DNA from: an uncultured Acidobacteriia bacterium
GTDB lineage: Bacteria > Acidobacteriota > Terriglobia > Bryobacterales > Bryobacteraceae
DNA: 64,000 bases
Reading direction: 5' to 3'
Assembly (NCBI GenBank): GCA_903925975.1
Contig: CAIYHG010000145.1
Span: forward strand, 47,218-111,217
Both the position numbers and the translations under genes were made by a program. Shown piece after piece: positions 2,035 to 29,717 of the stretch. How positions within the stretch are numbered: the first letter of the stretch is position 1; each line of letters opens with the position of its first letter. The notes below the pieces were generated by a model that worked only from the letters and a program-made list of their open reading frames with translations, ran no database searches and was not told the origin of the DNA.

Positions 2035-3666
2035 ATGCCGCGGCGCCTTGCCCGGAAACTCATATTATCGATTACGGTCATCGTGGTGATCGTGGCCGGG
2101 GTTTCCGGCCTGGTCAACGTACGCACGGAGGAAGACCAACTCCTCTACACGATGACTTTGGGCGCGGATCAGCTCTCTAAGGCGATCACGAGCTCGACGT
2201 GGCACGCGATGCTGGACGACCACCGCGACGTGGCCTACCAGGTAATGCAAACCATCGCGTTGAAGCAGGGCATCGACCGCATCCGGATGTTCAACCGGAT
2301 GGGGGAAGCGCGCTTCTCCACCAACCCCGCCGACCAAGGCATGAAGCTCGACCGCGCCTCCCCCACCTGCGCGATCTGCCACGCGCCGGACAAACCGCTG
2401 CTCCAGGTGGACCTGACGCGGCGAGTGCGGATTTTCAAGGGCGCCGACGGCCAGCGGCGGCTGGAGATGGTCACCCCCATCTACAACGAAAAATCGTGCA
2501 GCGAGGCGGAGTGCCACGCCCATCCGGCGCAATTGAAGGTGCTGGGCGTGCTCGATCTGGCGCTGTCGCTCGAAAGCGTCGATCGCGAAGTGGCCGGGAT
2601 GCAGTACCGAGTCCTGCTGGTAACGGCCATCGAGATTACGCTGATCGGCCTGTGCGTTATCCTGTTTACCCGCAGATTCCTGGCGCAGCCCATCGCCCGG
2701 CTGATCGAAGGCTGCAAGGCAGTCAGCCGGATGAAGCTGGACAAGCCGCTGGTGCTCGAACACGACAGCGAGGAACTGGACGAATTGGCCCTCTCGTTCA
2801 ACGTGATGCAAGACCGGCTGCGGGCGGCGCTGGAGGAAATCAACGAATTCACGCAGAACTTGGAGACCAAGGTCGAAGAGCGCACGGAGCAATTGAAGGC
2901 CGCCCAGAAGAAGCTGGTTCAGAGCGACCGGCTGGCCTCGCTCGGCCAGCTTTCGGCCAGCGTGGCCCATGAGATCAACAACCCGATTTCGGGCGTGCTG
3001 AACCTCTCCATGCTGCTGCAGCGCATGTTGAAGGGCGAAGGGATTCCGCCCGGCCGCCTGGAGGAGTTCCGGAAGTACCTCGCGCAGATCACTCATGAAA
3101 CCTCGCGGGTGGGCCGCATCGTCTCCGACCTGCTGGCCTTTTCGCGGCGCGGGAAGCCGCAGCGTTCGCCGGCCGATCTGAACAAGATCGTCGGGATGAC
3201 GCTTTCGCTGGTGCAGCACAAGTTGAAGTTGAGCAACGTGGATGCGCGCGTGCATCTGTTCGACGGGCTGCCGGAAGTGCTGTGCGACTCCTCTCAGATT
3301 CAACAGGTTGTAGTGAATCTGGTGCTCAACGCCGCCGAGGCCACCCAGAATAAAGCCGAGAAGCGGGTGGAGATCGAAACGACCATAAACGAAAACTCCG
3401 TGCTGCTCATGGTGACCGACAACGGCGAGGGCATCCCGCCGGAGAACCTCACCAAGATTTTCGATCCCTTCTTCACGACGAAGTCGGACGGCAAGGGAGT
3501 GGGCTTGGGGCTGGCGGTGAGCTATGGCATTATTCAGGCGCACGGCGGCGATATCGAAGTGAAGAGCGGGGTGGGAGCGGGCACGACGTTTACCGTGTCG
3601 CTTCCCCTGGAGCCTCCTCCCCAGCCGGGGGCGCCGAACGCTCTGGAATCGGCGCGCAATGGATGA
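2035..3666 (+). CDS. Membrane sensor histidine kinase with putative c-type heme sensor domain (CxxCH), HAMP, HisKA, HATPase
   Basis: TM, periplasmic domain with CAICH and CSEAECH, second TM, HAMP, H-box (SVAHEINNPISGVL), N/G boxes (NLVLNAAEAT, DNGEGIPPENLTKIFDPFFTTK). Confidence 0.93.
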   Translation: MPRRLARKLILSITVIVVIVAGVSGLVNVRTEEDQLLYTMTLGADQLSKAITSSTWHAMLDDHRDVAYQVMQTIALKQGIDRIRMFNRMGEARFSTNPADQGMKLDRASPTCAICHAPDKPLLQVDLTRRVRIFKGADGQRRLEMVTPIYNEKSCSEAECHAHPAQLKVLGVLDLALSLESVDREVAGMQYRVLLVTAIEITLIGLCVILFTRRFLAQPIARLIEGCKAVSRMKLDKPLVLEHDSEELDELALSFNVMQDRLRAALEEINEFTQNLETKVEERTEQLKAAQKKLVQSDRLASLGQLSASVAHEINNPISGVLNLSMLLQRMLKGEGIPPGRLEEFRKYLAQITHETSRVGRIVSDLLAFSRRGKPQRSPADLNKIVGMTLSLVQHKLKLSNVDARVHLFDGLPEVLCDSSQIQQVVVNLVLNAAEATQNKAEKRVEIETTINENSVLLMVTDNGEGIPPENLTKIFDPFFTTKSDGKGVGLGLAVSYGIIQAHGGDIEVKSGVGAGTTFTVSLPLEPPPQPGAPNALESARNG

Positions 3667-11962: not shown

Positions 11963-14900
11963 CTACTGCACGGCGTGCATCGCCGAAGCGTCCATGAGCA
12001 CTTCTCGATTGTCATCCAGGCCGCTTGACGAAATACCGTACACCTGAAGTTCCGCCCCCACGCCCGTCGGGCCGATTACATAGCCCAGCAGGAGGCGGTC
12101 TGCCGCGCGGACCGTAAGGCCATCCAGCCAAGCCAGGGCAATGGCTCCCGGCCCGCCCTCTTGCGCGATAGAGGGAGGAGCGTCCTGCGCCATTTCGTAG
12201 CGTAGCCGAGAACGCTGCGAGCCGAGCGCGAACGTCAGTGCCACGCGCGTCAAAACTTGTCTTGCTTCCAGGTACAGCGGGATGCGTTCTTCCGCCGTCC
12301 CAAACTGCTCCGGAGTTCCCAAAACCAGCGCACCCTGTGCGCCGGCGCCGCGAGCCGGGAAGGATTCGGCGCGCCATGGGCCGGCGGAGGCTGCGGGCGC
12401 AAACGCGCTCTGTCCGGGCGCGCCGGGGCAGACTCCGCCTCGCGAGGGCCGTACTGGCCGATCCGGGTCCAGGTTATTCACGCGGAACAACTCGCGAATC
12501 AGGTCGCGGATATCCAGAGCGTTGTCGCCTCCGCGCGCGGGCGCGACGTCAACAGGGTAAAGGTCCATTGCGTCGAAGCGGTCGGAGCATGCCGCCGGAC
12601 GAAATCCGGGAACATTGTTGACCGAGAACAGGATTTGGACAAGGTCCAGTATGTTCATGATCTCATCGCCGAACGCCGGCGCCGCGTCGGCGGTGTACGG
12701 AGCTACATCGCCCACGTTGTAGGTGGCCGAGCTTATGGTCAATTGCAGCGATGCCGAGGCCGTGGCTCCGGCGCTATCGGTCACTTGCGCCGTGAATGTG
12801 TAAGCGCCGGTTGCGGTGGGCGCACCGCTCAGTGCACCACCCGCACTCAGGTTCACGCCCGGAGGCAAGGCGCCGTTTGTGACGGCCCAATTCGAATCGG
12901 GCGGCGTGCCTCCGACTGCTACCAGCGTCTGCGAGTATGCCGCTCCCACGGAGCCCTGGGTTAACGGGGACGCGGTAAAGACGGAGAGCGCCCCCGCGCT
13001 AACCGCCAATGTGAAAGAAGCGGTGGCTGCCAGCGCGGAGCTGTCCGTGACTTGGACCGTGAAGGAGGACGCGCCGGCCGCGGCGGGCGTGCCCGATATC
13101 GCGCCGCCCGCGCTGAGCGAAAGGCCCGTGGGAAGAGCGCCGGAGACCACCGACCAGGAATAGGGCGGCAAGCCGCCGGCCGCCGTGAGCGTCCGTGAAT
13201 AGGTCACGCCAACCGCGGCGCGCGGCGATGCCGGCGTGGTGATAGACAAGGGGCTGAGCGGTTGGACACGCCGAACCGCGTTCGCGTAATAGTCTGCCAC
13301 ATAGAGATTTCCTGCTGCGTCAACGGTCACGCCGAATGGGGACCAGAGTTCGGCGCCCGCGGCCGGCCCGCCGTCGCCCGAGTAGCCCGGGGCGCCGTCG
13401 CCGGCCACGGGGGCAACGCCGCCGGAAGAGACCTTCATGACCCGGTGCTCGTCAGGGTACGCGATGTAGAGGTTGCCTGAAAGATCCAGCGCCACGCCGG
13501 AAGCGTAGCCACCGGAGGCCACGGTAGCGATGGACCCGCCGGGAGAAACCATGCGAACAACGCCCCCGGCGATATACAAATTGCCCGCCCCATCAATAGC
13601 TACGCCGGAGGGATAGGAAATCTGTGCGCTGGTTGCAGGCCCGCCGTCGCCCGAGTAGCCGGGAGCGCCGTTGCCGGCCACTGTGCCGATGAGGCCGCCG
13701 GCGGAAACCTCGCGAATGCGCCCGTTATATGCGTCCGCGATGAAGAGGTTGCCCGAAGCATCGAAGGCCAAGCCTGACGGACCGTTTAGCTGGGCTGCCG
13801 TGGCAGGCCCGCCGTCGCCCGAATAACCGGACGAGCCGTTCCCGGCGACCGTGGTAATAATGCCACCGGGCTGGATCTTGCGGACGGCGGCCGCTTCGGC
13901 GATGTAGAGGTTGCCGGAGCCGTCCACCGCCACGGCGGACGGGCTGTTCAACCGGGCGCTGGCGCCAGGCCCGCCGTCACCGGAGTGCCCTGCAACGCCA
14001 TCGCCGGCCACTGTGGTGATAGTGCCGGCGGGTGACACTTTGCGCACCCGGTTGTTGGCAGTGTCCGCGATGAAGAGGTTGCCCGAGGCGTCCACGGCTG
14101 TGCCGGACGGATGGAACAACTGAGCGCTGGTGGCGGGCCCGCCATCGCCGGAATAGGCGGAGTGGCCGGCGCCCGCCAGCGTGTCGATGTCGCCGTTGAG
14201 CCAAACCTTGCGAATCCTGCCGTTGTATGTATCCGCGAGGTACAGATTGCCGGACCCGTCGATTGCGACGCCGGATGGGGCGTTTAGCTGGGCTGCCGTG
14301 GCCGTGCCGTCGTCGCCCGAATAACCGGGAGAGCCATTGCCGGCTACCGTCGTAATGACTCCGGCCGGCGTGACTTTGCGGATGTTTCCCGCCGCGATAT
14401 AGAGGTTCCCCGTTGCATCGCACGCCAAGCCGTATATTGAGCCGAGGTGCGCACTTCGCGCTGGTCCGCCATCGCCGGGCACGTTGGGGCCGCCGCCAGC
14501 CACGATCACGGTGAGTGCCAAGCCGCCGCTGACCCATACCTTGCTAACAATCCCCGAGTGCTGGTCCGCAACATAGACGTTCTCCGACGCATCGACGGCG
14601 ATGGCGGACGGGAAATACGTAGAAGGGCCGCCCACGGCCCAGCCCATCACAGTGCTGATGACGCCGCCGGGCGCGACCTTTCTAACGACGGTGGCGCCGT
14701 CGAGCGCCTCGGCGATATAGAGGTTTCCAGACCCGCTCACCGCCACGCCATTCGGCCAGGAAAGTGTTGCGCTTGTGGCAGGACCGCCGTCTCCCGACTC
14801 GCCGCGAACGCCGTTGCCGGCGACGGTGGTAATGACGCCGGCCGAAACCTTGCGGACGCGGTTATTGCCCGCATCGGCAATGTAGAGATTCCCCGAGCTA

Positions 14901-17900
14901 TCAACGGCCAAGCCGCCCGGCCAGCTCAGCGATGCGCTCGCGGCTGGTCCGCCATCGCCTGAGTAACCCGGCCGGCCGGTACCGGCAACCAGAGTTACCG
15001 CCCCTGTGGAATCGATCTTGAACACGTTCTGAAGGGCGCTGAAATACACGTTTCCGCTGGAATCGGCGGCCACTCCCACGGGTTCGCCGAAGGACGCCCC
15101 GGCAGCCACCGGCGAGGGCGCAGGCGCGCCGCCGGCCACTGTCGCGATGACGGTGGGCGCGGTAACGGCAAGGCCGAATGCGCCGGTGATCGTTCGTGAG
15201 ACGCTGTCCTGCACCCTGACCGTGAAACCAAAGTAGCCGCCCGCCACAGGAGTACCGGAAAGCGTGCCATCAACGGAAAGCGAGACGCCGCCGGGAAGCG
15301 CCCCGGCAACTACCGTCCAGGAATACGGAGGGGAGCCGCCCGAAGCGACCAGCGTGTAAGAATACGGCCCGCCGACAGCCGTCCGCGGCAGCGGCGATGC
15401 GCTGACAATGGCAATAGGGGGCGGAGCAATCGTGAGACTGAATGCTGCGCCCGCTGTCATCGAGATGCCATCGGACACCTGGAGTGCAAAGCTGAAGACT
15501 CCAGCCCTGGTCGGCGTTCCGGAAAGCGTTCCACCGGAGGCCAGCGTCAAGCCATCCGGAAGCGCGCCCGCGGTCAGCGACCAGGTGTAGACAGACGCTC
15601 CTCCAGACGCGGTGAATGTTTGGGAGTATGCGGTCCCTACCGTCCCCGGCGTAAACGGCGATGCGCTGACAATTGAGGGAGAGTTCAAGATTGAAAAGGT
15701 GAGCGTCACGGTGGCAGTCGCGCCGGCGCCGTCCATGACCTGGGACGTGAACGCGTAGTTGCCGGCCTGGCTAGGCGTTCCGGAAAGGGTTCCAGCGGCG
15801 GCGAGCGCCAAGCCAGGCGGAAGCGCGCCCGAGGTTATCGACCAGGTAAGCGGCCCCGTGCCGTTGGTCGCTAATAGTTTCCCGGAGTAGGGCACGCCCA
15901 CAAGCCCCGCGTGCAAACCTTGCGCCGGGATGTAAAGCGCAGTCCGCACAATGACCTGGAAACTGCCTCTGGCGGTGAGAACGTTAGCATCGGTTACCAG
16001 AACGGTGAACTGCACCGTTCCGCATCCGCCGGTGTTTGCGGTTGGAATTCCGCCGAGTTTCCCGTCGTACCCGAGCCGAAGGCCGCACATCGGGCTCGAA
16101 GACTCGAAGTAGTAGGGCGGCTTTCCCCCCGATGCCGTCAGTTGCGCCGAGTAGGCTTGTCCGGTGTGTGCGTCGGGCAGGGTCGTGGGGCCCAGCGTGA
16201 TCGCGTCAGGGTCAATCTGAAGCTGGTAGGTAACCGTTCCCCTGACTCCTTTGGTATCCTCGGCCGTTACGTGTATTTCTCTGGCGTTGCCGGCCTCCGA
16301 CGGGGTCCCGCTCAGCACGCCCGAGATGCCGAGCGTTAAGCCAATTGGCAGTGTGCCGTAGGTAAGTGAGTACGTGTAGGGCGGCGTTCCGCCGGATGCC
16401 TGAATCGTGGCAGAGTACGGGTTCCCGATATGTCCAGCCGGCAAGGCTGCCGGCGCCAGGCTGAGGGTTGGCCTCAGATCCTTGATGGTGAGTTGAATGA
16501 CGCCGGTTCCGGTGGAACCGTTAGCATCCGTGGCCCGAACCGTGGCGTAGATCCAGCCCGCGCTCGTGGGCGTGCCTGTAATCTTCCCATCGAGCCCCAA
16601 CGGAAGATCCGCGCTCCACATTCCATAGAGCATTACGAATTGGTAGGGCGGGGTTCCTCCCGAAGCGGTCAACTGCGCGGAATACGGCTGACCGACAGAT
16701 GCGTCCGCCAAGGTAGCCGGGCCCACCGTGAGCGTGTCGCCGCCGATGGTCAGGCCATACTGGGCGTAGCCGGTTGCGCCACCGGAGTCCCGAGCCGCTA
16801 TCCGAAAACTGAACGCTCCGGCCTGCGCGGGCGCGCCGCCGATTTGGCCCTGCGCGCTCAGCGTTAAGCCATTGGGAAGCGAGCCCTGAGACAGGGAGAA
16901 ACTGTACGGAGCCGTTCCGCCGGATGCTTGAATCGCAGCCGAGTAAGGGCTTCTGATTTGACCGGCGGGCAACGATGTCGGAGTCAAAGTGAGAAGCGCG
17001 GCGGTGGTCACGATTTGGTAGTCCCGGAAGCACATGGCGCCGTTGGAATCGGCGGCTGCAATCCGGAAGCCGGTGGATGACGCAGCGGCCGGAAAACCCG
17101 AGATGATGCCTGTGTTGCCGTCCAGCGTCAGGCCTGCCGGAAGGAACGACGCGGAGAGGGAGTAAGTATAAGGAGGCGTGCCGCCGGATGCCGCAATGGT
17201 AGCGGAGTACGGGCTCCCGACCGTGCCTGCGGGGAGCGTGTCCGGGCCGATGGCGATGGGCTGGTTCAGTATGCGAAGCGAATAATCCAACGATACGGTA
17301 TGTGATGCGCCATCGGTGGCGGTGACGCGAAAGGGGAACGAACCGGCCGTGGTGGGCTTGCCCGAGATCTGCAAAGGCCCGTTGTCGGGCATGGACGCGG
17401 TCAGGCCGGGCGGCAAGGACCCGTTCGAAATCGTGAACCGAACCGGGGCGGTGGCGCCGGAAGCGGCGATCGAAGCGGTGTAGTAGATAACGCCGACTTG
17501 TCCATCGTGCACCGATGTCGGGTACAGGGTGAACGGCGCTCTGACGAAATCGATGGCGTAACTGACTTGTCCGCCTCCGTTCCCGCTGTCCCGAACGGTG
17601 ATGAGGCATGAGGCGTCGCCTGCCCACGTCGGCGCGCCCGAAATGAGGCCGCTCGCGCTCAGCGCGATGCCCGTTGGCAGCGCACACGCCGTGCTGAACT
17701 GGTACGGCGGCGCCCCGCCGGAAACAGTCAATTGCCAGGAGTAGGGAACGCCCCACTGAAAGGCGGGCAGTGAGGACGGTTGAATGCTAACTTCAGTCCC
17801 CGTCACCATCAAGCTGTAAGCTCGCGCGCCGGCGTTTCCGGAGGAGTCCCCGGCCTGGACCTGGAAAGAGAACGTCCCCGGAGACAACGGCTTGCCTCGC

Positions 17901-19813
17901 AACACGGCATAGGCCGGCGAAGTTCCGCTGTCCAGATACAACGCCAGCCCAGGGGGAACCTTGTCAATGTAGATTCCGTACGGCGGCGTTCCACCCAATG
18001 GCGTGAACGTGACTGAGTAGTCCCGATTCACCACGCCTCCGGGCACTGTCTCCGTCCCGATCGTGAGATGGGCGTCAAACACGAGCGCCGTCACCGTCTT
18101 GGTCGCGGTTTTGCCCAGCAAGGTTCGGGCGCCTACGGTGAAGCTAAACACTCCGGCGGCTTTAGGCGCGCCGCTGAGAACTCCATTCTCGGCGAGCGTC
18201 AACCCAGGCGGCAAGCCGCCCCCCTCAATCGAAAAAGTAAAAGGCCCCGACATGCTGGGGGACGCGGTGTAAACATAACGGTAGGGCTCGCCGACCCAAC
18301 TGGAAAAGCTCCAATCCCCCACCACCCTAAGGGGTTCCGGCGCTATAACGGGCGTCGTGACGGCCATCGTATACGTGCGCGTGGCGTGCTGCCCGCTGGA
18401 ACCGAGTGCCGAGATCGTGAAAGTGTACGAACCGGTTGCCGTGGGCGTTCCCTCGATTGTCTCCATAGGGGCCCCTCCACTCAGCGGCTTGGTTACCAAC
18501 TGCAATCCCGGAGGCAGCGTACCGGATTCCAGCGTCATACTCGTATAATCGAATCCGGAAGTAAATAGCTGTTGAGAATACTTGCTATTGGGCGTCGCAT
18601 CCAGAAAGGTAGCCGGCACGATATCGTAAACATCGAGGCCAAACTCTATATCCCGGACTCGCCCTACGCCATCCGTCAAGCGCACCTTGAACCAGTAGTG
18701 GCCTCCACTCGTGGGCAGGCCCGCAAGAACGCCCTGGCTGCTGAACGTCCACCCGGCCGGCAGTTGATACCCGGTCTGCAGCCTCCACGCATAAGGGGCG
18801 GTCCATCCGGACGCGCTCAATGCGATCGAGTAGGGTACACCCGGGTACGCGGGCGTGGCACTCCAGTTCAGAAATAGATTGGGAAGCGCCACCGGCACGG
18901 TGAAATCGGCGTAACCGCTCCGGCCCGCGGAATCTGTCGCCGTGATCCGAAAGGTATATTCGCCGCCGCTGGTCGGCGCGCCGGAGATAACTCCGGTGGA
19001 ATTGTCGAGTGCCAGGCCAGGCGGCAAAGCGCCTGATGTGACGGCAAACGTGTAGGGGGCGGCACCCCCACTCGGCCATATCTGCGCCGACCACGCCCTA
19101 CCCACCGCCGCTGCTCCCATGACGCTCGAACCGACCTCGACGCCCTGCCGGACACCGAGCGTAAAGGTGCGCTGGATGGACACAGGCGGGACCGAACTAT
19201 CCGTCGCGGTGACAGTGAAGTTGTATGTGCCCGGGGCCTGAGAGACTGTCCCGAACAACCGGCCGCAGGCGTCGGTCGAAAGGCCGTTGGGCATGCTTCC
19301 CGACACGTTGAAGCGGTAGGGCTCCGTTCCGCCCGCCAGCAGATACGTGGTGGGATACGGGTAGTTGTGAACTGCATCCGGGAGCGCGGAGGCGATGAAG
19401 GTGAATGGGGTTGCAGGTTGCTGTATTCGCAGCGTGTATAAGTGCGTTTCGGTTATCGGGGGATCGGAACCGTCCCGCCCCGCGATGTAGAACTGGAACA
19501 TGCCGCTCACTGTCGGTACGCCCCTAAGGAACGTAGGTGACGGGTTACTGTAGAGTTCCAACCCGGCGGGCAGTGCCGACCCCGCGGCAAGCGCGAAGCT
19601 CCACGGTGTGTTCCCCTTCGTCGTGCTCAACTGGGCCCCGTAGGTGGTCCCCACGACGCCGTCCGGCAGAAGGCTCGGGCCCATGCCCAGTTGGGCGTAC
19701 GCGGCGCTCGTCATGCAGAATAAAGCGAAGGCGCACTTCAGCGCGCGAAGAACAAGGGAAACTGCCCGACGACGGGGCCTAACTTCAAGCGAAGCCACCC
19801 ACCAGGAGAGCAT
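11963..19813 (-). CDS. Giant secreted protein: about 19 putative Ig (He_PIG-like) repeats, an NHL-repeat block, two dockerin-like motifs, C-terminal beta-rich domain
   Basis: 2616 aa; signal peptide ...FALFCMTSAAYA|Q. Repeats of type LPAG..G.PYSA.I.ASGGTPPYT.SL..G.LP.GL.L...G.ISG.P..AG...F.I.A.D; then GYSGDGGPATSAQL..PSGVA.D.SGNLYIAD..N.RIRKV; then VGDVAPYTADAAPAFGDEIMNILDLVQILFSVNN and ARGGDNALDIRDLIRELFRVNN. Confidence 0.93.
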   Translation of the reverse strand: MLSWWVASLEVRPRRRAVSLVLRALKCAFALFCMTSAAYAQLGMGPSLLPDGVVGTTYGAQLSTTKGNTPWSFALAAGSALPAGLELYSNPSPTFLRGVPTVSGMFQFYIAGRDGSDPPITETHLYTLRIQQPATPFTFIASALPDAVHNYPYPTTYLLAGGTEPYRFNVSGSMPNGLSTDACGRLFGTVSQAPGTYNFTVTATDSSVPPVSIQRTFTLGVRQGVEVGSSVMGAAAVGRAWSAQIWPSGGAAPYTFAVTSGALPPGLALDNSTGVISGAPTSGGEYTFRITATDSAGRSGYADFTVPVALPNLFLNWSATPAYPGVPYSIALSASGWTAPYAWRLQTGYQLPAGWTFSSQGVLAGLPTSGGHYWFKVRLTDGVGRVRDIEFGLDVYDIVPATFLDATPNSKYSQQLFTSGFDYTSMTLESGTLPPGLQLVTKPLSGGAPMETIEGTPTATGSYTFTISALGSSGQHATRTYTMAVTTPVIAPEPLRVVGDWSFSSWVGEPYRYVYTASPSMSGPFTFSIEGGGLPPGLTLAENGVLSGAPKAAGVFSFTVGARTLLGKTATKTVTALVFDAHLTIGTETVPGGVVNRDYSVTFTPLGGTPPYGIYIDKVPPGLALYLDSGTSPAYAVLRGKPLSPGTFSFQVQAGDSSGNAGARAYSLMVTGTEVSIQPSSLPAFQWGVPYSWQLTVSGGAPPYQFSTACALPTGIALSASGLISGAPTWAGDASCLITVRDSGNGGGQVSYAIDFVRAPFTLYPTSVHDGQVGVIYYTASIAASGATAPVRFTISNGSLPPGLTASMPDNGPLQISGKPTTAGSFPFRVTATDGASHTVSLDYSLRILNQPIAIGPDTLPAGTVGSPYSATIAASGGTPPYTYSLSASFLPAGLTLDGNTGIISGFPAAASSTGFRIAAADSNGAMCFRDYQIVTTAALLTLTPTSLPAGQIRSPYSAAIQASGGTAPYSFSLSQGSLPNGLTLSAQGQIGGAPAQAGAFSFRIAARDSGGATGYAQYGLTIGGDTLTVGPATLADASVGQPYSAQLTASGGTPPYQFVMLYGMWSADLPLGLDGKITGTPTSAGWIYATVRATDANGSTGTGVIQLTIKDLRPTLSLAPAALPAGHIGNPYSATIQASGGTPPYTYSLTYGTLPIGLTLGISGVLSGTPSEAGNAREIHVTAEDTKGVRGTVTYQLQIDPDAITLGPTTLPDAHTGQAYSAQLTASGGKPPYYFESSSPMCGLRLGYDGKLGGIPTANTGGCGTVQFTVLVTDANVLTARGSFQVIVRTALYIPAQGLHAGLVGVPYSGKLLATNGTGPLTWSITSGALPPGLALAAAGTLSGTPSQAGNYAFTSQVMDGAGATATVTLTFSILNSPSIVSASPFTPGTVGTAYSQTFTASGGASVYTWSLTAGALPDGLTLASGGTLSGTPTRAGVFSFALQVSDGISMTAGAAFSLTIAPPPIAIVSASPLPRTAVGGPYSYTLVASGGSPPYSWTVVAGALPGGVSLSVDGTLSGTPVAGGYFGFTVRVQDSVSRTITGAFGLAVTAPTVIATVAGGAPAPSPVAAGASFGEPVGVAADSSGNVYFSALQNVFKIDSTGAVTLVAGTGRPGYSGDGGPAASASLSWPGGLAVDSSGNLYIADAGNNRVRKVSAGVITTVAGNGVRGESGDGGPATSATLSWPNGVAVSGSGNLYIAEALDGATVVRKVAPGGVISTVMGWAVGGPSTYFPSAIAVDASENVYVADQHSGIVSKVWVSGGLALTVIVAGGGPNVPGDGGPARSAHLGSIYGLACDATGNLYIAAGNIRKVTPAGVITTVAGNGSPGYSGDDGTATAAQLNAPSGVAIDGSGNLYLADTYNGRIRKVWLNGDIDTLAGAGHSAYSGDGGPATSAQLFHPSGTAVDASGNLFIADTANNRVRKVSPAGTITTVAGDGVAGHSGDGGPGASARLNSPSAVAVDGSGNLYIAEAAAVRKIQPGGIITTVAGNGSSGYSGDGGPATAAQLNGPSGLAFDASGNLFIADAYNGRIREVSAGGLIGTVAGNGAPGYSGDGGPATSAQISYPSGVAIDGAGNLYIAGGVVRMVSPGGSIATVASGGYASGVALDLSGNLYIAYPDEHRVMKVSSGGVAPVAGDGAPGYSGDGGPAAGAELWSPFGVTVDAAGNLYVADYYANAVRRVQPLSPLSITTPASPRAAVGVTYSRTLTAAGGLPPYSWSVVSGALPTGLSLSAGGAISGTPAAAGASSFTVQVTDSSALAATASFTLAVSAGALSVFTASPLTQGSVGAAYSQTLVAVGGTPPDSNWAVTNGALPPGVNLSAGGALSGAPTATGAYTFTAQVTDSAGATASASLQLTISSATYNVGDVAPYTADAAPAFGDEIMNILDLVQILFSVNNVPGFRPAACSDRFDAMDLYPVDVAPARGGDNALDIRDLIRELFRVNNLDPDRPVRPSRGGVCPGAPGQSAFAPAASAGPWRAESFPARGAGAQGALVLGTPEQFGTAEERIPLYLEARQVLTRVALTFALGSQRSRLRYEMAQDAPPSIAQEGGPGAIALAWLDGLTVRAADRLLLGYVIGPTGVGAELQVYGISSSGLDDNREVLMDASAMHAVQ

Positions 19814-22061: not shown

Positions 22062-22469
22062 CTAGCGGACGGCTGGCCTCCGTGTGCGCTTGCGCGGCCT
22101 TGCCGGAGTATTTCCCCATTGGCGCGGTCTTTCGAGGCCCGGAGGCAGGAGAGTTACCCGGTTGCCTACGGCTTCGTTCACCTGTAGCTGCGTCAGGTAG
22201 AGGCTCCGGCTGAGGTCGGCTCCGCATAAGTTGGCGCGCCACAAGCTTGCCCCGCACAGGTCCGCTTCAGTCAGATCGGCCCCCGCCAGATCGGATTTCT
22301 CCAAATGAGCGCAGTAGAGGCTAGCCCTTGTCAGGTTGACCCGGAGCAGATCCATTCCATCGAGAATGCAAAAGCTCAGGTCGGGCGCGGCAAGTGGATT
22401 CAGCTTCCTCCACCGGTTCCAAACCTTCACCCCCTGCCGTAGCAGCAGAATCTGTTCCCGCTTTGCCAT
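22062..22469 (-). CDS. Pentapeptide-repeat protein
   Basis: A(D/N)LxxA(D/N/S)L repeats: LRVNLTRASLYCAHLEKSDLAGADLTEADLCGASLWRANLCGADLSRSL. Confidence 0.85.
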   Translation of the reverse strand: MAKREQILLLRQGVKVWNRWRKLNPLAAPDLSFCILDGMDLLRVNLTRASLYCAHLEKSDLAGADLTEADLCGASLWRANLCGADLSRSLYLTQLQVNEAVGNRVTLLPPGLERPRQWGNTPARPRKRTRRPAVR

Positions 22470-22532: not shown

Positions 22533-25145
22533 TCAACTCGGGTCGAAGTAGCAGACCGAACACTGGCGCAGGGCATCGGCGTAAATTCGCAGTTTTCCTC
22601 GCGCGGCAATATCCGCCGGGTCAATCACGCGCACCGCGTCGGCCCAAACGGCCTCATCCGGCAGAAGCCTCGCCAGAAGATTCGGCGCCTGCTCGAAGAC
22701 TGCCGCGTTCACGTAGTTCCCCTCACGCCCGGGCGTGAGGGCCAAATACAAAATCTGAGATTCCACCAGGTCGTTGAAGAAATGGGTGCCGAGCGAAACG
22801 TCGGGAACAAGACCCTCGCGCATCTCAATCACCTCGCAGAGCGCCTTCACGCGGGCGATCTCCGCAAAGGATACGGGCACGCCCAAGGACGGCTCTGCCG
22901 TTCCCCACCTTCCGGGACCGATGAGAAACAGCGCTCCTTCGGGGACGTCTTCGAGTCTGGTGAGACGGCCGATCAACCGCGCGATCGAGTATCGCTCCGC
23001 CAGAGGGAGCGCGCCATAGACGCGGGGGACCACATAGATCACCCGGCCCACCGTTAGGGCCGTGCTGGGACCAATCACCGGGCCCTTCGTCTCAAGCGCC
23101 AGATCTTTCGGGTCCACCGCTTCGGGACGGGGCGCCGCGGGCCCTCCAATCCGCACCTGAAACGGCCGGCATTGCACCAGGTTAATGCGATGACTTCCGT
23201 CCGAAAGGAAGTTCGCCGTGAATTCCACGTCCACCGGGTATTGGTATGCGGCTTCGAGCGTTTCGAGCAGTGCCCGCATGTCCGCCACGAACGACGTTTC
23301 CGTCAGCAACCGCTTGAAAGTGAGCACCCAAGGGAACATCGGGCGCCCTGTCTCTCTCGCGCGCCGCATCAGCTCGGGGTCGCGCCCGGCCACCATCTCA
23401 ATGCACCGCTCGCCGCAGCTCTTTACGACTTCCTCAAACGCTCGCGCGCACGGCTGCTGGCCTTCGAGATCGAGTACGTCCACCCGCCATTGCGCGTACT
23501 CGCGCACTTCGAGGGAATTCGTTTCCGGCCGGCGCGACGGAGCGTTGAGAGCCACAATGCGCGTGTAATCGTCGTCGGAACGGCGTACGGCGCGAGTGCC
23601 CAGCCCGAACACGAGCCGCAGCACGCCCGCCTTGGGGTCGATTTGCTCGGACCACGCGTATGGATTGAACGAAAGCCCCACGCCCGCCACTTGCGGAAAG
23701 AAAAGCTTCCCGTAGGTGGCGCCCGAGACGCGTTGAACCAGAATCGCCATCTGTTCATCGCGGTCCAGCAGGCCCCGCTGGGAGCGGTAGAGCAGCGCCT
23801 CGCGCCCCATGGCGCTGGCGTAGATTTGGCGCACGGCCGCGAGGAAGGCGTCCACCCTCTCCTGCGGCGACCCCTGATTCGGGCAGAACACGCTTTCGTA
23901 CTTTCCGGAAAACGAATTACCGAAGCTATCTTCCAGGAGGCTGGACGAGCGGACCACAATCGGCGCCTGCCCGAAATAGTCCAGCATCTCCGCTACCTGA
24001 TCGCGCACGAATTCCGGGAACGATCCGGAGAGCATCTGCTCGCGCGCGCTATCCACGTCGTCGAGGTACCGCTCGCCGTCGCGCTGCCTTTGGCGGATAC
24101 GCCAGCAACCGTTGCTCACCAGGTAGGAATAGAAAAGGTCCGAACCCAGGAAGAAGGAATCGTGGGGCTCCAGAACTTCGCGCCACCGCCCCCCGGCATT
24201 GCGAAGTATGCCGCGTGCCACCAGCATGCCCGTGGCCTTTCCTCCTATCAGTCCGGTGCCGATCATGCGGCGGCGCACGGCCAGCAGATCGTCCAGAGTC
24301 AGATAGCGTTCGGCGAGTTCGAGCATGCGCTCATTGCGCGTGACCACCATTCGCGACAGATGATGCAGCGTCCCCCGCACGGCGTCCGGCGTCCGCTCGC
24401 CCCGCGCGGCGGCTTCGGATGTGTCGCGGGCGGCCCTAAAGGTGCGGTCCCAGAGGTCAAAGCGGTCGGTTTCCCTTCCGGCGGCCTCGCGCGTCAGGGT
24501 TTCGTAAATTCCGGAAATGGCATTGCTCTCCGTCACCGGCCGGAAGGAATCCTCGTTCCAGACGTGCGGCAGATACATGGTTGGCGAGTACCGCTCGAAC
24601 ACCTTCAGAGGATGCACGTAGAGAGAGCCTTCGTGCCGGTGGACATCGAGCAGAAGCTGCGTGGTATCGCGGATCGCGGCTACGGCGCGATACGAATGCC
24701 GCCCCCGCAAGAGGGCGAAGTAGGCGATTGTATCCAGCTCCCTCAGATACGGGCAGGTCACTTTGAAGAAATTGCCCAGCATCATGTCGCTGTACCAATC
24801 CGCCGCAAGGTCGGAAAGGCAGTCGAAGAGGTAGAAAGCGCCGCGCCCCCCGCGCGCGATCACGCGGTGAATTTCCGCGGTGAGAGTTTCAAACCCCGCC
24901 GCCGGGTCCAGCCGGTGCGTCTCAATCCGCGGATCTTCGGGTATCAGTTCCTCATGGCGCTCGAAGTGGAAGTAGATCAGCTTCCGGCCCTGCCGCAGCG
25001 CTTCATCGCAGTACGGACGCACGAACGGCGCATAGTCTTCGATAGCCGCGACTTGCCAGACCACGTTGTCGCCCGGCAGCAAGCCTTCGAGAATGCGATC
25101 GAGCGCAGGCAAGCCCGTGCTGGGATGAGTTTCAGCGGATGGCAT
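22533..25145 (-). CDS. KaiC-like (degenerate P-loop) domain fused to PEP/pyruvate-binding (PPDK-type) ATP-grasp domain
   Basis: N-term STGLPALDRILEGLLPGDNVVWQV...GAFYLFDCLSDLAADW resembles KaiC/RecA-like ATPases without GKT. Middle IGGKATGMLVARGIL...PIVVRSSSLLEDSFGNSFSGKYES. C-term GPGRWGTAEPSLGVPV...GTHFFNDLVESQILYLAL. Confidence 0.8.
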   Translation of the reverse strand: MPSAETHPSTGLPALDRILEGLLPGDNVVWQVAAIEDYAPFVRPYCDEALRQGRKLIYFHFERHEELIPEDPRIETHRLDPAAGFETLTAEIHRVIARGGRGAFYLFDCLSDLAADWYSDMMLGNFFKVTCPYLRELDTIAYFALLRGRHSYRAVAAIRDTTQLLLDVHRHEGSLYVHPLKVFERYSPTMYLPHVWNEDSFRPVTESNAISGIYETLTREAAGRETDRFDLWDRTFRAARDTSEAAARGERTPDAVRGTLHHLSRMVVTRNERMLELAERYLTLDDLLAVRRRMIGTGLIGGKATGMLVARGILRNAGGRWREVLEPHDSFFLGSDLFYSYLVSNGCWRIRQRQRDGERYLDDVDSAREQMLSGSFPEFVRDQVAEMLDYFGQAPIVVRSSSLLEDSFGNSFSGKYESVFCPNQGSPQERVDAFLAAVRQIYASAMGREALLYRSQRGLLDRDEQMAILVQRVSGATYGKLFFPQVAGVGLSFNPYAWSEQIDPKAGVLRLVFGLGTRAVRRSDDDYTRIVALNAPSRRPETNSLEVREYAQWRVDVLDLEGQQPCARAFEEVVKSCGERCIEMVAGRDPELMRRARETGRPMFPWVLTFKRLLTETSFVADMRALLETLEAAYQYPVDVEFTANFLSDGSHRINLVQCRPFQVRIGGPAAPRPEAVDPKDLALETKGPVIGPSTALTVGRVIYVVPRVYGALPLAERYSIARLIGRLTRLEDVPEGALFLIGPGRWGTAEPSLGVPVSFAEIARVKALCEVIEMREGLVPDVSLGTHFFNDLVESQILYLALTPGREGNYVNAAVFEQAPNLLARLLPDEAVWADAVRVIDPADIAARGKLRIYADALRQCSVCYFDPS

Positions 25146-25192
25146 GATGCCTCATCTCGCAGGATGGCCGCACAACCGCGGGGCCGAGCGAA

Positions 25193-25230
25193 AGCCGGCA
25201 TGAATGCCGGCTCTGCACGCTGAAGCGTGC
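25193..25230. repeat. Tandem palindrome (REP-like): two hairpins with GA loops
   Basis: AGCCGGCAT-GA-ATGCCGGCT then GCACGCT-GA-AGCGTGC. Related copy near 31535-31582. Confidence 0.8.
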
Positions 25231-25250
25231 GCCACAAGGGCGTTGTACGG

Positions 25251-28220
25251 TCATGGCAGTACGATCAACCCCCGCTGCGTCTGGCCGTCCATGCGCACCG
25301 AGAAAGGCTGGGCCAGGCGGACATGCCGCACGCCTGGCGCGACTTCCTCGCCCGGCAGCGCCTTCAACAGATCCCAGCGCACGAATTCCCGCTCGTTCGA
25401 CGCCGTGAGCGAGAAATACCCTATGCCCGCCGAGGTCATATTGTGAAAGAAGTGCGTACCCTGCGACGGTTCCATGGGCAGATCCGTCGCCGGAACCTCC
25501 ACGATCACGCTGGCCCACGATATTTGGTGCCACCCCACGGGAATCCCGATCCACGGATCGAACGAACCCCATCTTCCGGGCCCCATCAACAAATAGCGCC
25601 TGCGTTCCTTGGTGAGGCGCTCGTTAATTTCCGCCACCACGGAGGCGAACTCGGCGCTCTTCGACCTGTCGAACTTCGCCGGATCGATATAGACGATGTC
25701 GCGCAGCCCTTCGATCTTTCCGTTCCCCAGCACTCGCTGTGACAGACACAGCGTTTTCTCCGGCGGCACGGAATCCGAAACAATGTCGTAGCGCTCGCGA
25801 AGAGCTACCAGAGGCCGCATCTGCAGGAAGTGGAATTGCGGCTCGCGCCCCGGTCCGCCGTCAAAATCCACGGCAAATTCGATCTCCACGGGAAACCCGA
25901 GGTCCTTCTTACAGGCTTCGAATAAGTCGTTCAAAATAGCGCAGAGCGGAAAGATATTGTGCTTGAGGACGCGCGCGAAGGTGACCACACGGCTGCCGCG
26001 CCGCCCAACGCCATCGTAGATCCGGTCCTCCTCGGTATCCACCACGCTGCCCGCCAGCGCCAGCGTGCCGTGTTCTTCGGCATCGGAAAGCTGCAGCCGC
26101 GCGAGCGTCGCATCCGTGCCGCGCAACAGATCTACGTCGCTGCACTCCAGGTCCAAAGCGAAGAATTGCCGCTGCGCCACCCTCATCACTTCAGCCGGAG
26201 ACCGGAACTGCGGCAGCACCTGCGGGTAGCGCGGGCAGAACCGCACGGCCTCGCCGCCCTCCACCACCTGCTTCCCCAACCCGAGAGCTATGGTCGCCAC
26301 GCCATCGTCCGGCTTCATCTGAAACACCGGGTAATAATTGTGCGACTGCGCCACGCCGGAAACCGCGGGGTAGAAATACCGCCCGTAGCGGCGGCCCGCC
26401 ACCTCTTGAATGATCACCGCCATCCGCGACTCGGTAGCGTCGTGCCCGATCGCCTCCAGGTAGCGCCGCGGCCGCTCCAGATAAGACGATGCGTAGACCA
26501 GCTTCACCGCCGTCTCCAGATGGTTCAACCGGACTTCGAGATCGGGGTGGTTGTTGGGGAGCATGTAGGTTGCGTATAGCCCCGCCAGCGGCTGCCGGTG
26601 AGAGTCTTCGAGTAACCCCGAGGAGCGCACGGCCAGCGGAACATTCACCCGCGAAACGTATAGCTCCAGGCTGTCGCGCAACCGCCGCCCCAGACGGCAG
26701 GCTTCGAAGCGCCGCTGAATTTCATGGTCCGCCTCTCCCACGAAGGAGGCGGGGTCCACCCGGTTTTCCATCAGCAGCGCATCCGATTCGTCGGCGCCGA
26801 TCACCAGGGTTCGCGGCAGGCGCGTCTTCACTCCCCGGAAGCGCTCGTCCGTCATCCACTGGCTGAGTTGCCGGAAGACGAAGGCGAGACCGCGCCCCTT
26901 GCCTCCCAGCGAGCCGCGCCCGAGAACCAGGAAGGGGTACTCGGGGTCGAACTCGGGCGGCCGGAAATCGGCGATGGCGCCGCGGTATTTCTCCTTGCGC
27001 GCAATCGAAATCGCGTTGGCCAGGTACTCCTTGAGCGCGCCAACAGTGGGAAAATCCGAAACCGTGATGGGCGCGAGCACGGAGGCGAGCGTGGTTTCTC
27101 CCCGCGCCCGGAACCAGTGCGAAAGATCGTTGCGTTTGGCGTGAAATGCCAGAGATTCGTCGGGCACGGCGCGCAGCGCCTGTTCCATCTCCCACAGATT
27201 CGAAACGCCGACGATCTTCGCTCCATCCGGCATGCGGAACTCGAAGTCGCCGAAACCGATATCCTCCAGCACGAACTGCTCGATGGCCGGCCGCATGTTC
27301 GAGCCGCGCTTGCTCAAGCAACGCGCTCCCAGAGACGCGGCGAGTTCCTGCGCGTCGGGCTCGGAGGATTGCACCAGAATCGGCAGCCCGGGCGTCCGCG
27401 CCGCTACCGTGCGCAGGAAACGAGCGCCCCGCTCGGGCTCGATCATGTCGTCCTGGAACGTGTGCAGATCGGAAATGATGCCCACGAGCGACGCTTCATA
27501 CTTGTCAAAAAGCGCGCTCGCCTCTTCGAACGTCCGCGCCAGCAGCACCTTCGGGCGCACTCGCGTGCGCACCTGCCGGTCGCTCTCGTTGATGCCCTCC
27601 GGCACCAGCATGAACGTGCGCTGCATGAGCATCGAGTAGAGGTGCGGCAGAATCAGCGAGTAGTGTTCCACCGCGTCCTCCACCAGCAAGATCGTCCCAA
27701 TCGACGCAATCTCCAAATCGGGATCGATGTTCTGGCTGTCCTCCACCAGCTTCATGATCGAGAGCAGAACATCGGCGCTGCCGCGCCACGCGAAAGTCCG
27801 GTCAATTCCTTCGGGCTCGGTACCGCGATAGTTCTGGTCGAACCAGGAGCCGTCAAAAACAACCAGCACGACCGGCAGATCCGGATACGCGGCCTTGACT
27901 TGCCGCCCGAACTCGGAAGTCGTCATGTCCGGCAGATTGCCGGAGACGAGCACCAGGTCGAAACGTTCGCTGCCGAGGATCTTCAGCCCTTCCGATCCGG
28001 AAAGAGCCGAAATCACCTGAGGCACGTTCTGCAAATGCAATAGCTGCGATGTTCCGTAGATATCCTGCGTCAGTGAGTGGTCGCGCGCCAGGCTGAAGGA
28101 TTCATAGGGGTTCGAAACCATCAGAATGGTGCGCACCCGGCGCGCCATCAGATGATGCAGCCCGCGAAACTGCGGATCGTAGGCGTAGCGAAGCTGATCG
28201 CGAAGGTCCGCTGGCTTCAT
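25251..28220 (-). CDS. Tandem receiver-like domains fused to PEP/pyruvate-binding (PPDK-type) ATP-grasp domain
   Basis: Two REC-like blocks (RTILMVSNPYESFSLARD...FDLVLVSGNLPDM; GTILLVEDAVEHYSL...LVGIISDLHTF). Then GRGSLGGKGRGLAFV...PLAVRSSGLLEDSHRQPLAGLYATY. C-term GPGRWGSFDPWIGIPV...GTHFFHNMTSAGIGYFSL. ORF extends to a TTG at 28286; ATG at 28220 preferred. Confidence 0.82.
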   Translation of the reverse strand: MKPADLRDQLRYAYDPQFRGLHHLMARRVRTILMVSNPYESFSLARDHSLTQDIYGTSQLLHLQNVPQVISALSGSEGLKILGSERFDLVLVSGNLPDMTTSEFGRQVKAAYPDLPVVLVVFDGSWFDQNYRGTEPEGIDRTFAWRGSADVLLSIMKLVEDSQNIDPDLEIASIGTILLVEDAVEHYSLILPHLYSMLMQRTFMLVPEGINESDRQVRTRVRPKVLLARTFEEASALFDKYEASLVGIISDLHTFQDDMIEPERGARFLRTVAARTPGLPILVQSSEPDAQELAASLGARCLSKRGSNMRPAIEQFVLEDIGFGDFEFRMPDGAKIVGVSNLWEMEQALRAVPDESLAFHAKRNDLSHWFRARGETTLASVLAPITVSDFPTVGALKEYLANAISIARKEKYRGAIADFRPPEFDPEYPFLVLGRGSLGGKGRGLAFVFRQLSQWMTDERFRGVKTRLPRTLVIGADESDALLMENRVDPASFVGEADHEIQRRFEACRLGRRLRDSLELYVSRVNVPLAVRSSGLLEDSHRQPLAGLYATYMLPNNHPDLEVRLNHLETAVKLVYASSYLERPRRYLEAIGHDATESRMAVIIQEVAGRRYGRYFYPAVSGVAQSHNYYPVFQMKPDDGVATIALGLGKQVVEGGEAVRFCPRYPQVLPQFRSPAEVMRVAQRQFFALDLECSDVDLLRGTDATLARLQLSDAEEHGTLALAGSVVDTEEDRIYDGVGRRGSRVVTFARVLKHNIFPLCAILNDLFEACKKDLGFPVEIEFAVDFDGGPGREPQFHFLQMRPLVALRERYDIVSDSVPPEKTLCLSQRVLGNGKIEGLRDIVYIDPAKFDRSKSAEFASVVAEINERLTKERRRYLLMGPGRWGSFDPWIGIPVGWHQISWASVIVEVPATDLPMEPSQGTHFFHNMTSAGIGYFSLTASNEREFVRWDLLKALPGEEVAPGVRHVRLAQPFSVRMDGQTQRGLIVLP

Positions 28221-28346
28221 TGTGGTTTGGTGGATCGAGTTGACGGCAACATCTTCCTGAGTAACACGTTCCGCGGCGGCGGGCAATTCGCTTGCGCTCC
28301 GGGGCCTGGCGGGAAACTGCGCCAGGCCCCGGAAACGGTGAAGAGC

Positions 28347-29717
<1,371 letters not shown>

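Follow-up and report, generated by a model that had tools for sequence, protein, structure and literature searches.

Three consecutive genes on the minus strand form the subject of this analysis, which covered a stretch of 64,000 nucleotides referred to here as the window. Its nearest homologues and relatives place the window in a genome of Bryobacterales (Acidobacteriota). The first gene of the unit encodes an NADP-type glutamate dehydrogenase, GDH1 (28347-29708; Pfam PF00208/PF02812, NCBIfam NF006929). It is followed by the gene for protein B (25251-28220), in which two receiver domains, REC1 and REC2, precede a linker, a PPDK_N ATP-grasp domain and a C-terminal GPGRWG/GTHFF module, and then by the gene for the 870-residue protein A (22533-25145), in which a KaiC-like N-terminus precedes an ATP-grasp and a GTHFF module of the same kinds. 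The gaps are about 126 bp between GDH1 and B and 105 bp between B and A, and no minus-strand terminator-like site was found between the three genes. The open reading frame of B is listed to 28286, which gives 1011 residues from a TTG (25251-28286), and the residue numbers used here run over that full frame; alignment to homologues places the conserved start at the ATG at 28220, the Met at which most Bryobacterales homologues begin. The initial annotation had described two consecutive same-strand genes with a PPDK-type ATP-grasp core, at 22533-28286, as a candidate undescribed signalling or phosphotransfer system. The reading frames are as described and Pfam finds PPDK_N in both, but the proposed system stops one gene short: the glutamate dehydrogenase gene directly upstream of B belongs to the unit, and its recurrence as a partner makes this a system tied to GDH.

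Downstream of A by 63 bp, and on the same strand, lies a gene for a pentapeptide-repeat protein (22062-22469), which is probably outside the unit because it is absent from the recurrent neighbours. Further along the minus strand, a 2616-residue reading frame (11963-19813) probably encodes a large surface or secreted protein, in which NHL beta-propeller repeats accompany numerous putative Ig (He_PIG) domains.

The ATP-grasp core is recognised by Pfam above its cut-off at residues 299-665 of A (23151-24251; E=7e-45) and residues 459-831 of B (E=1.8e-29), where we delimit the domain to residues 452-831 (25794-26933), with K463, R554, T573, E803, Q822 and R824 conserved. In the family alignment, counting the sequences with a residue at the position, the catalytic Lys K463 is found in 128 of 128, R554 in 131 of 131, and T or S573 in 131 of 131. 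Mutation of Lys22, Arg117 or Thr136 destroys the function of rifampin phosphotransferase (RPH) (PMC4844700); with equivalence assigned by motif, the counterparts of Lys22 and Arg117 are invariant in A and B, and that of Thr136 is Thr or Ser. Turnover of ATP by A and B would be expected because these catalytic residues are kept. AlphaFold models B well (mean pLDDT 84), and its model of A is confident over the ATP-grasp and tail, with pLDDT below 50 at residues 96-230 in the N-terminus. Searched with Foldseek, the core of B resembles RPH, HpeI and PPDK, and the model of A returns the same PDB folds.

The PEP/pyruvate TIM barrel is missing from both proteins, as the initial annotation had claimed: PF02896 was not matched in A or B at E up to 1, and both proteins end after a C-terminal module of about 175-190 residues. 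An identity as a metabolic PEP synthase or PPDK was rejected on the ground of this missing domain. Also rejected were an anti-phage system, given no PADLOC match and a single conserved neighbour that is metabolic, and a phage protein, given a PHROGs match limited to the receiver.

The C-terminal module directly follows the ATP-grasp in both proteins, at residues 835-1011 of B (25254-25784), with the GTHFF motif at 943-947 (25446-25460) including His945, and at residues 680-868 of A (22542-23108), with GTHFF at 786-790 (22776-22790). When searched alone the module matched nothing in Pfam at E up to 10; the weak longin/SNARE matches that it gave by sequence in the PDB were not trusted. The shared module, proposed from these two proteins, holds up across 133 family sequences, in which G904, R905, E930, G943, F946 and F947 are invariant where the residue is present; at position 945, 123 of 124 have His. 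An Arg-Trp pair, a Glu and a Thr/Ser-His pair are almost invariant in the modules of both A and B, and Arg905, Glu930 and His945 are retained across the deep split between the two. Judged from the alignment, this conservation is far beyond chance.

The initial annotation also held that neither protein has a phospho-His domain. The searches agree: PF00391 was not matched by Pfam in A or B at E up to 1, and comparison of the C-terminal module by hhalign with 30 His-domain sequences, and again with 50, produced no match. When the ATP-grasp and tail were aligned as one anchored block, the ATP-grasp match was strong, the tail was unreliable and the histidines of the GTHFF module and the phospho-His domain were not paired. 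The absence is nevertheless less certain than it appeared, given the near-invariant His and the predicted order of secondary structure. In both models, the module runs from a strand (ending in GPGRWG) through a short turn or helix, a strand ending in the Glu, a loop and a helix starting at GTH to a final strand. The phospho-His swivel domain of PF00391 has a similar order of strands and helices, with its His likewise starting a helix, and the modelled order of the GTHFF module resembles it. RPH has a swivel domain built as a beta/beta/alpha sandwich (PMC4844700). In Foldseek, the best alignments to PPDK extend over 637-689 columns, compared with 375-432 for most alignments to RPH, HpeI and ATP-grasp-only structures, these being lengths reported without residue ranges. 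In PPDK the His domain comes after the ATP-grasp, and the alignments of A and B to PPDK reach well past the ATP-grasp-only lengths. Together with the His at a predicted helix start, these long alignments are suggestive, if only indirectly, of a possible swivel domain in A and B. A tandem pair from Chloroflexota (L151/L186) includes one member with GTDFF in place of GTHFF, with the ATP-grasp residues kept and a normal paralogue adjacent, and is possibly a natural His-to-Asp variant.

The claim that the two ATP-grasp cores sit behind different regulatory front ends is supported by receivers in B and a KaiC-like region in A. In B, the two receiver-like domains of the initial annotation are not equal. 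REC2 (residues 196-343; 27258-27701) is complete, and its catalytic set of E203, D204, D273, S307 and K326 is complete in 28 of 29 sequences. REC1 (residues 50-170; 27777-28139) is degenerate, with Ser115 at the position of the phospho-acceptor Asp and a Response_reg match below the Pfam cut-off (E=2e-6); the Foldseek matches to the receiver half include the tandem receivers of PleD. The acidic pair, phospho-Asp, Ser/Thr and Lys of a response regulator are therefore all present in REC2 but not in REC1, and B is equipped for two-component input, as had been proposed. The linker (residues 344-450; 26937-27257) has a conserved NDxSxWxxARxExxLA motif and a weak DUF5752 match below the Pfam cut-off (E=0.012). 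Neighbour clustering found no histidine kinase recurring beside B. The window encodes a sensor histidine kinase (HAMP-HisKA-HATPase) on the plus strand at 2035-3666, some 22 kb from B, and it is conceivable that this is a partner of REC2.

The N-terminus of A (residues 8-212; 24510-25124) matched nothing in Pfam or the PDB, and falls largely in the low-confidence part of the model. By pairwise hhalign it aligns in register with KaiC, from STGLPALD to a Walker-B-like FDCLSDL (E=5e-4, probability 32%), when the alignment is enriched with Armatimonadota homologues; six near-identical sequences alone gave no match. A P-loop, GxxxxGK(T/S), is absent from A of the window and from every aligned homologue. 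The proposed KaiC/RecA-like N-terminus without a P-loop is moderately supported. Relatives of A linked to a second GDH type, GDH2, differ in their ends. A GAF-type N-terminus replaces the KaiC-like one, with weak Pfam support in an acidobacterium (L182) and by eye in a Thermoplasmatota archaeon (L021), and a nucleotidyltransferase domain (PF01909) follows the GTHFF module (L021:7466-10597; L182:10925-15538), reminiscent of nitrogen-regulatory nucleotidyltransferases.

A and B are paralogues of one PPDK_N/GTHFF family. The tree of cores has two clades, each with full support, one of B with receivers and B2, which is a B-type core lacking receivers, and the other of A and a Chloroflexota form whose N-terminus is helical. 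The tree was used for assignment; sorting of B from A by HFFH or HFFQ was dropped because many B proteins have HFFQ. Matches to the B model were found in 118 of 297 Acidobacteriota genomes, whereas full-length B was limited to 2 of 151 genomes of Chloroflexota and to 2 of 250 of Armatimonadota, with A-type genes commoner in the latter. In the tree, B and A of the window are closest to Armatimonadota rather than to other classes of Acidobacteriota, so horizontal transfer is likely. Occurrence among close relatives of the window genome is patchy.

The chief finding beyond the initial annotation is the linkage of this family to glutamate dehydrogenase. A GDH-family gene was present in 21 of the 33 initial B loci, usually directly upstream and on the same strand, with the one at L037 being a more distant dehydrogenase. 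With larger flanks, GDH1 was found near B in 26 of 31 Acidobacteriota genomes, representing about 25 families, compared with none of 20 canonical PPDK loci from Acidobacteriota with similar flanks. No GDH1 lay nearby in the other five Acidobacteriota genomes with B or in about half of the loci from other phyla. GDH was the only neighbour family that recurred: an unbiased clustering of neighbours found it at 37 loci, against five for the family ranking next. GDH is directly upstream of or adjacent to B in Chloroflexota (L030, L033), Armatimonadota (L029), Ignavibacteriota (L031), the archaeon L021 and one further locus (L028). Among 13 loci from Armatimonadota, A-type genes lacking a B lie next to GDH1 in five and next to another type of GDH in two, in convergent, codirectional or divergent orientation. 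The archaeon has the order GDH1-B-GDH2-B2-A and the acidobacterium L182 has GDH1-B facing GDH2-B2-A, such that in both B goes with GDH1, and B2 and A go with GDH2. A Bacteroidales contig (L027:9446-15942) carries two full B-type genes in tandem, with a GDH one gene further downstream.

Within Bryobacteraceae, GDH1 and B were gained and lost together: four genomes have both, one has only B (a 62%-complete MAG), one has only GDH1 and 31 have neither (Fisher p=3.7e-4, uncorrected for relatedness). The same GDH type is common without B in one order (f3), and therefore B is not required for GDH. A few residues distinguish B-linked GDHs from those that are not linked, and comparison of the two sets, of which the unlinked is essentially one order, found no regulatory signature. 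Conserved genetic linkage to GDH, as a class of GDH regulators should show, is observed. Because the linkage persists through gene rearrangement and reaches across domains of life, it argues strongly for a common function of GDH and A/B, whatever its kind.

We propose, with an even measure of confidence and doubt, that B is a two-component-responsive, ATP-driven GDH regulator, with A as its partner, and that it would work by loading of His945. In short, a histidine kinase would phosphorylate REC2 of B, and phosphorylated REC2 would open or close the ATP-grasp. The ATP-grasp would then load a phosphate from ATP onto His945 of the C-terminal module by dikinase-type chemistry, with AMP as product; His945 would be the likeliest acceptor. 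The phospho-His945 state, or phosphate passed on from it, would activate or inactivate the neighbouring GDH. A would be the partner with another input, KaiC-like here and, in the GDH2-linked form, a GAF-type N-terminus with a nucleotidyltransferase, and the pair would tune glutamate/2-oxoglutarate flux to energy and nitrogen status. We infer both the transfer, to His945, GDH or REC2, and the sign of any effect on GDH.

A metabolic role is the best-surviving alternative, although we think it unlikely. A and B would be ATP-dependent kinases or ligases of a metabolite near GDH, such as glutamate, 2-oxoglutarate, ammonia or a derivative, that GDH supplies or drains; the C-terminal module would be a second substrate site and the receiver would only tune activity. 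The model for this is RPH, which acts on a small molecule, and RPH, HpeI and PPDK are the nearest folds. Every characterised PPDK_N protein known to us acts on small molecules or glucans, and the C-terminal module is conserved like an active site. However, a large second substrate domain is missing, and neither transporters nor other genes of a pathway recur in the neighbourhood, leaving GDH as the sole partner. Regulation is favoured over a metabolic role because pathway genes other than GDH do not recur and because the paralogues carry signalling modules of different kinds as their front ends (REC, KaiC-like, GAF-type and nucleotidyltransferase).

Rather improbable, in our estimate, is a pseudo-enzyme sensor, in which the ATP-grasp binds ATP, ADP or AMP without phosphotransfer and A/B serve as a nucleotide- and receiver-controlled allosteric subunit of GDH. 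GDHs are commonly regulated by nucleotides, and a recognisable phospho-His domain was found neither by Pfam nor by profile comparison. Against this, the residues kept include those for RPH catalysis beyond binding, with the Lys22 and Arg117 equivalents invariant, and an almost invariant His starts a predicted helix in the C-terminal module. A bolder version of the preferred model, to which we give similarly little credence, would make the PPDK_N/GTHFF proteins a new class of ATP-driven histidine autokinases, in which the His of GTHFF, within a diverged swivel, exchanges phosphate with REC2 and GDH as a self-contained phosphorelay. That the acceptor is a separate protein with a phospho-His domain, as in the split system of phenylphosphate synthase, would suit an ATP-grasp with no recognised His domain in cis but is very improbable, given that the canonical PPDK is the sole PF00391 match in the 86%-complete genome to which the window belongs, that His-domain proteins do not recur beside A/B and that the family members seen have GTHFF attached.

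A search of open-access text found no paper that ties GDH to receiver proteins or to proteins resembling PPDK or PEP synthase. What appears new is the association with GDH and the joining of the GTHFF module to an ATP-grasp and receivers, which are themselves of known kinds. GDH stands where carbon metabolism meets nitrogen metabolism. In this widespread gene pair, a dikinase-type ATP-grasp travels with GDH together with a two-component receiver and a new conserved module, which makes the control of GDH in most non-model phyla directly testable, and adjacency to GDH across several bacterial phyla and one archaeon suggests an undescribed switch in how cells connect nitrogen with carbon metabolism. 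If the regulatory model is correct, PPDK-type chemistry extends from metabolism to signalling. Today, A and B carry only generic family matches and are easily mistaken for PEP synthases.

Compared with known systems, A and B share with RPH and PPDK/PEP synthase, their best PDB folds, a PPDK_N ATP-grasp with matching catalytic Lys, Arg and Thr/Ser. They differ in having no PF00391 signature and no RIF-binding or PEP/pyruvate TIM-barrel domain, and in having the GPGRWG/GTHFF module, signalling N-termini and a GDH neighbour. The first 343 residues of B resemble the tandem receivers of the response regulator PleD, with a complete catalytic set in REC2, but in B the degenerate receiver is the first and the output is an ATP-grasp protein rather than a GGDEF or DNA-binding domain. 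A shares with KaiC-type ATPases the start motif and Walker-B-like segment that align in register, but it has lost the P-loop and has just one such domain, which is truncated and joined to an ATP-grasp. Regulation of bacterial GDH by phosphorylation or by a nucleotide signal is known from GarA/OdhI and from Thermus APRTh/GdhA. Those regulators have FHA and phosphoribosyltransferase folds with no ATP-grasp, and are unrelated to A and B.
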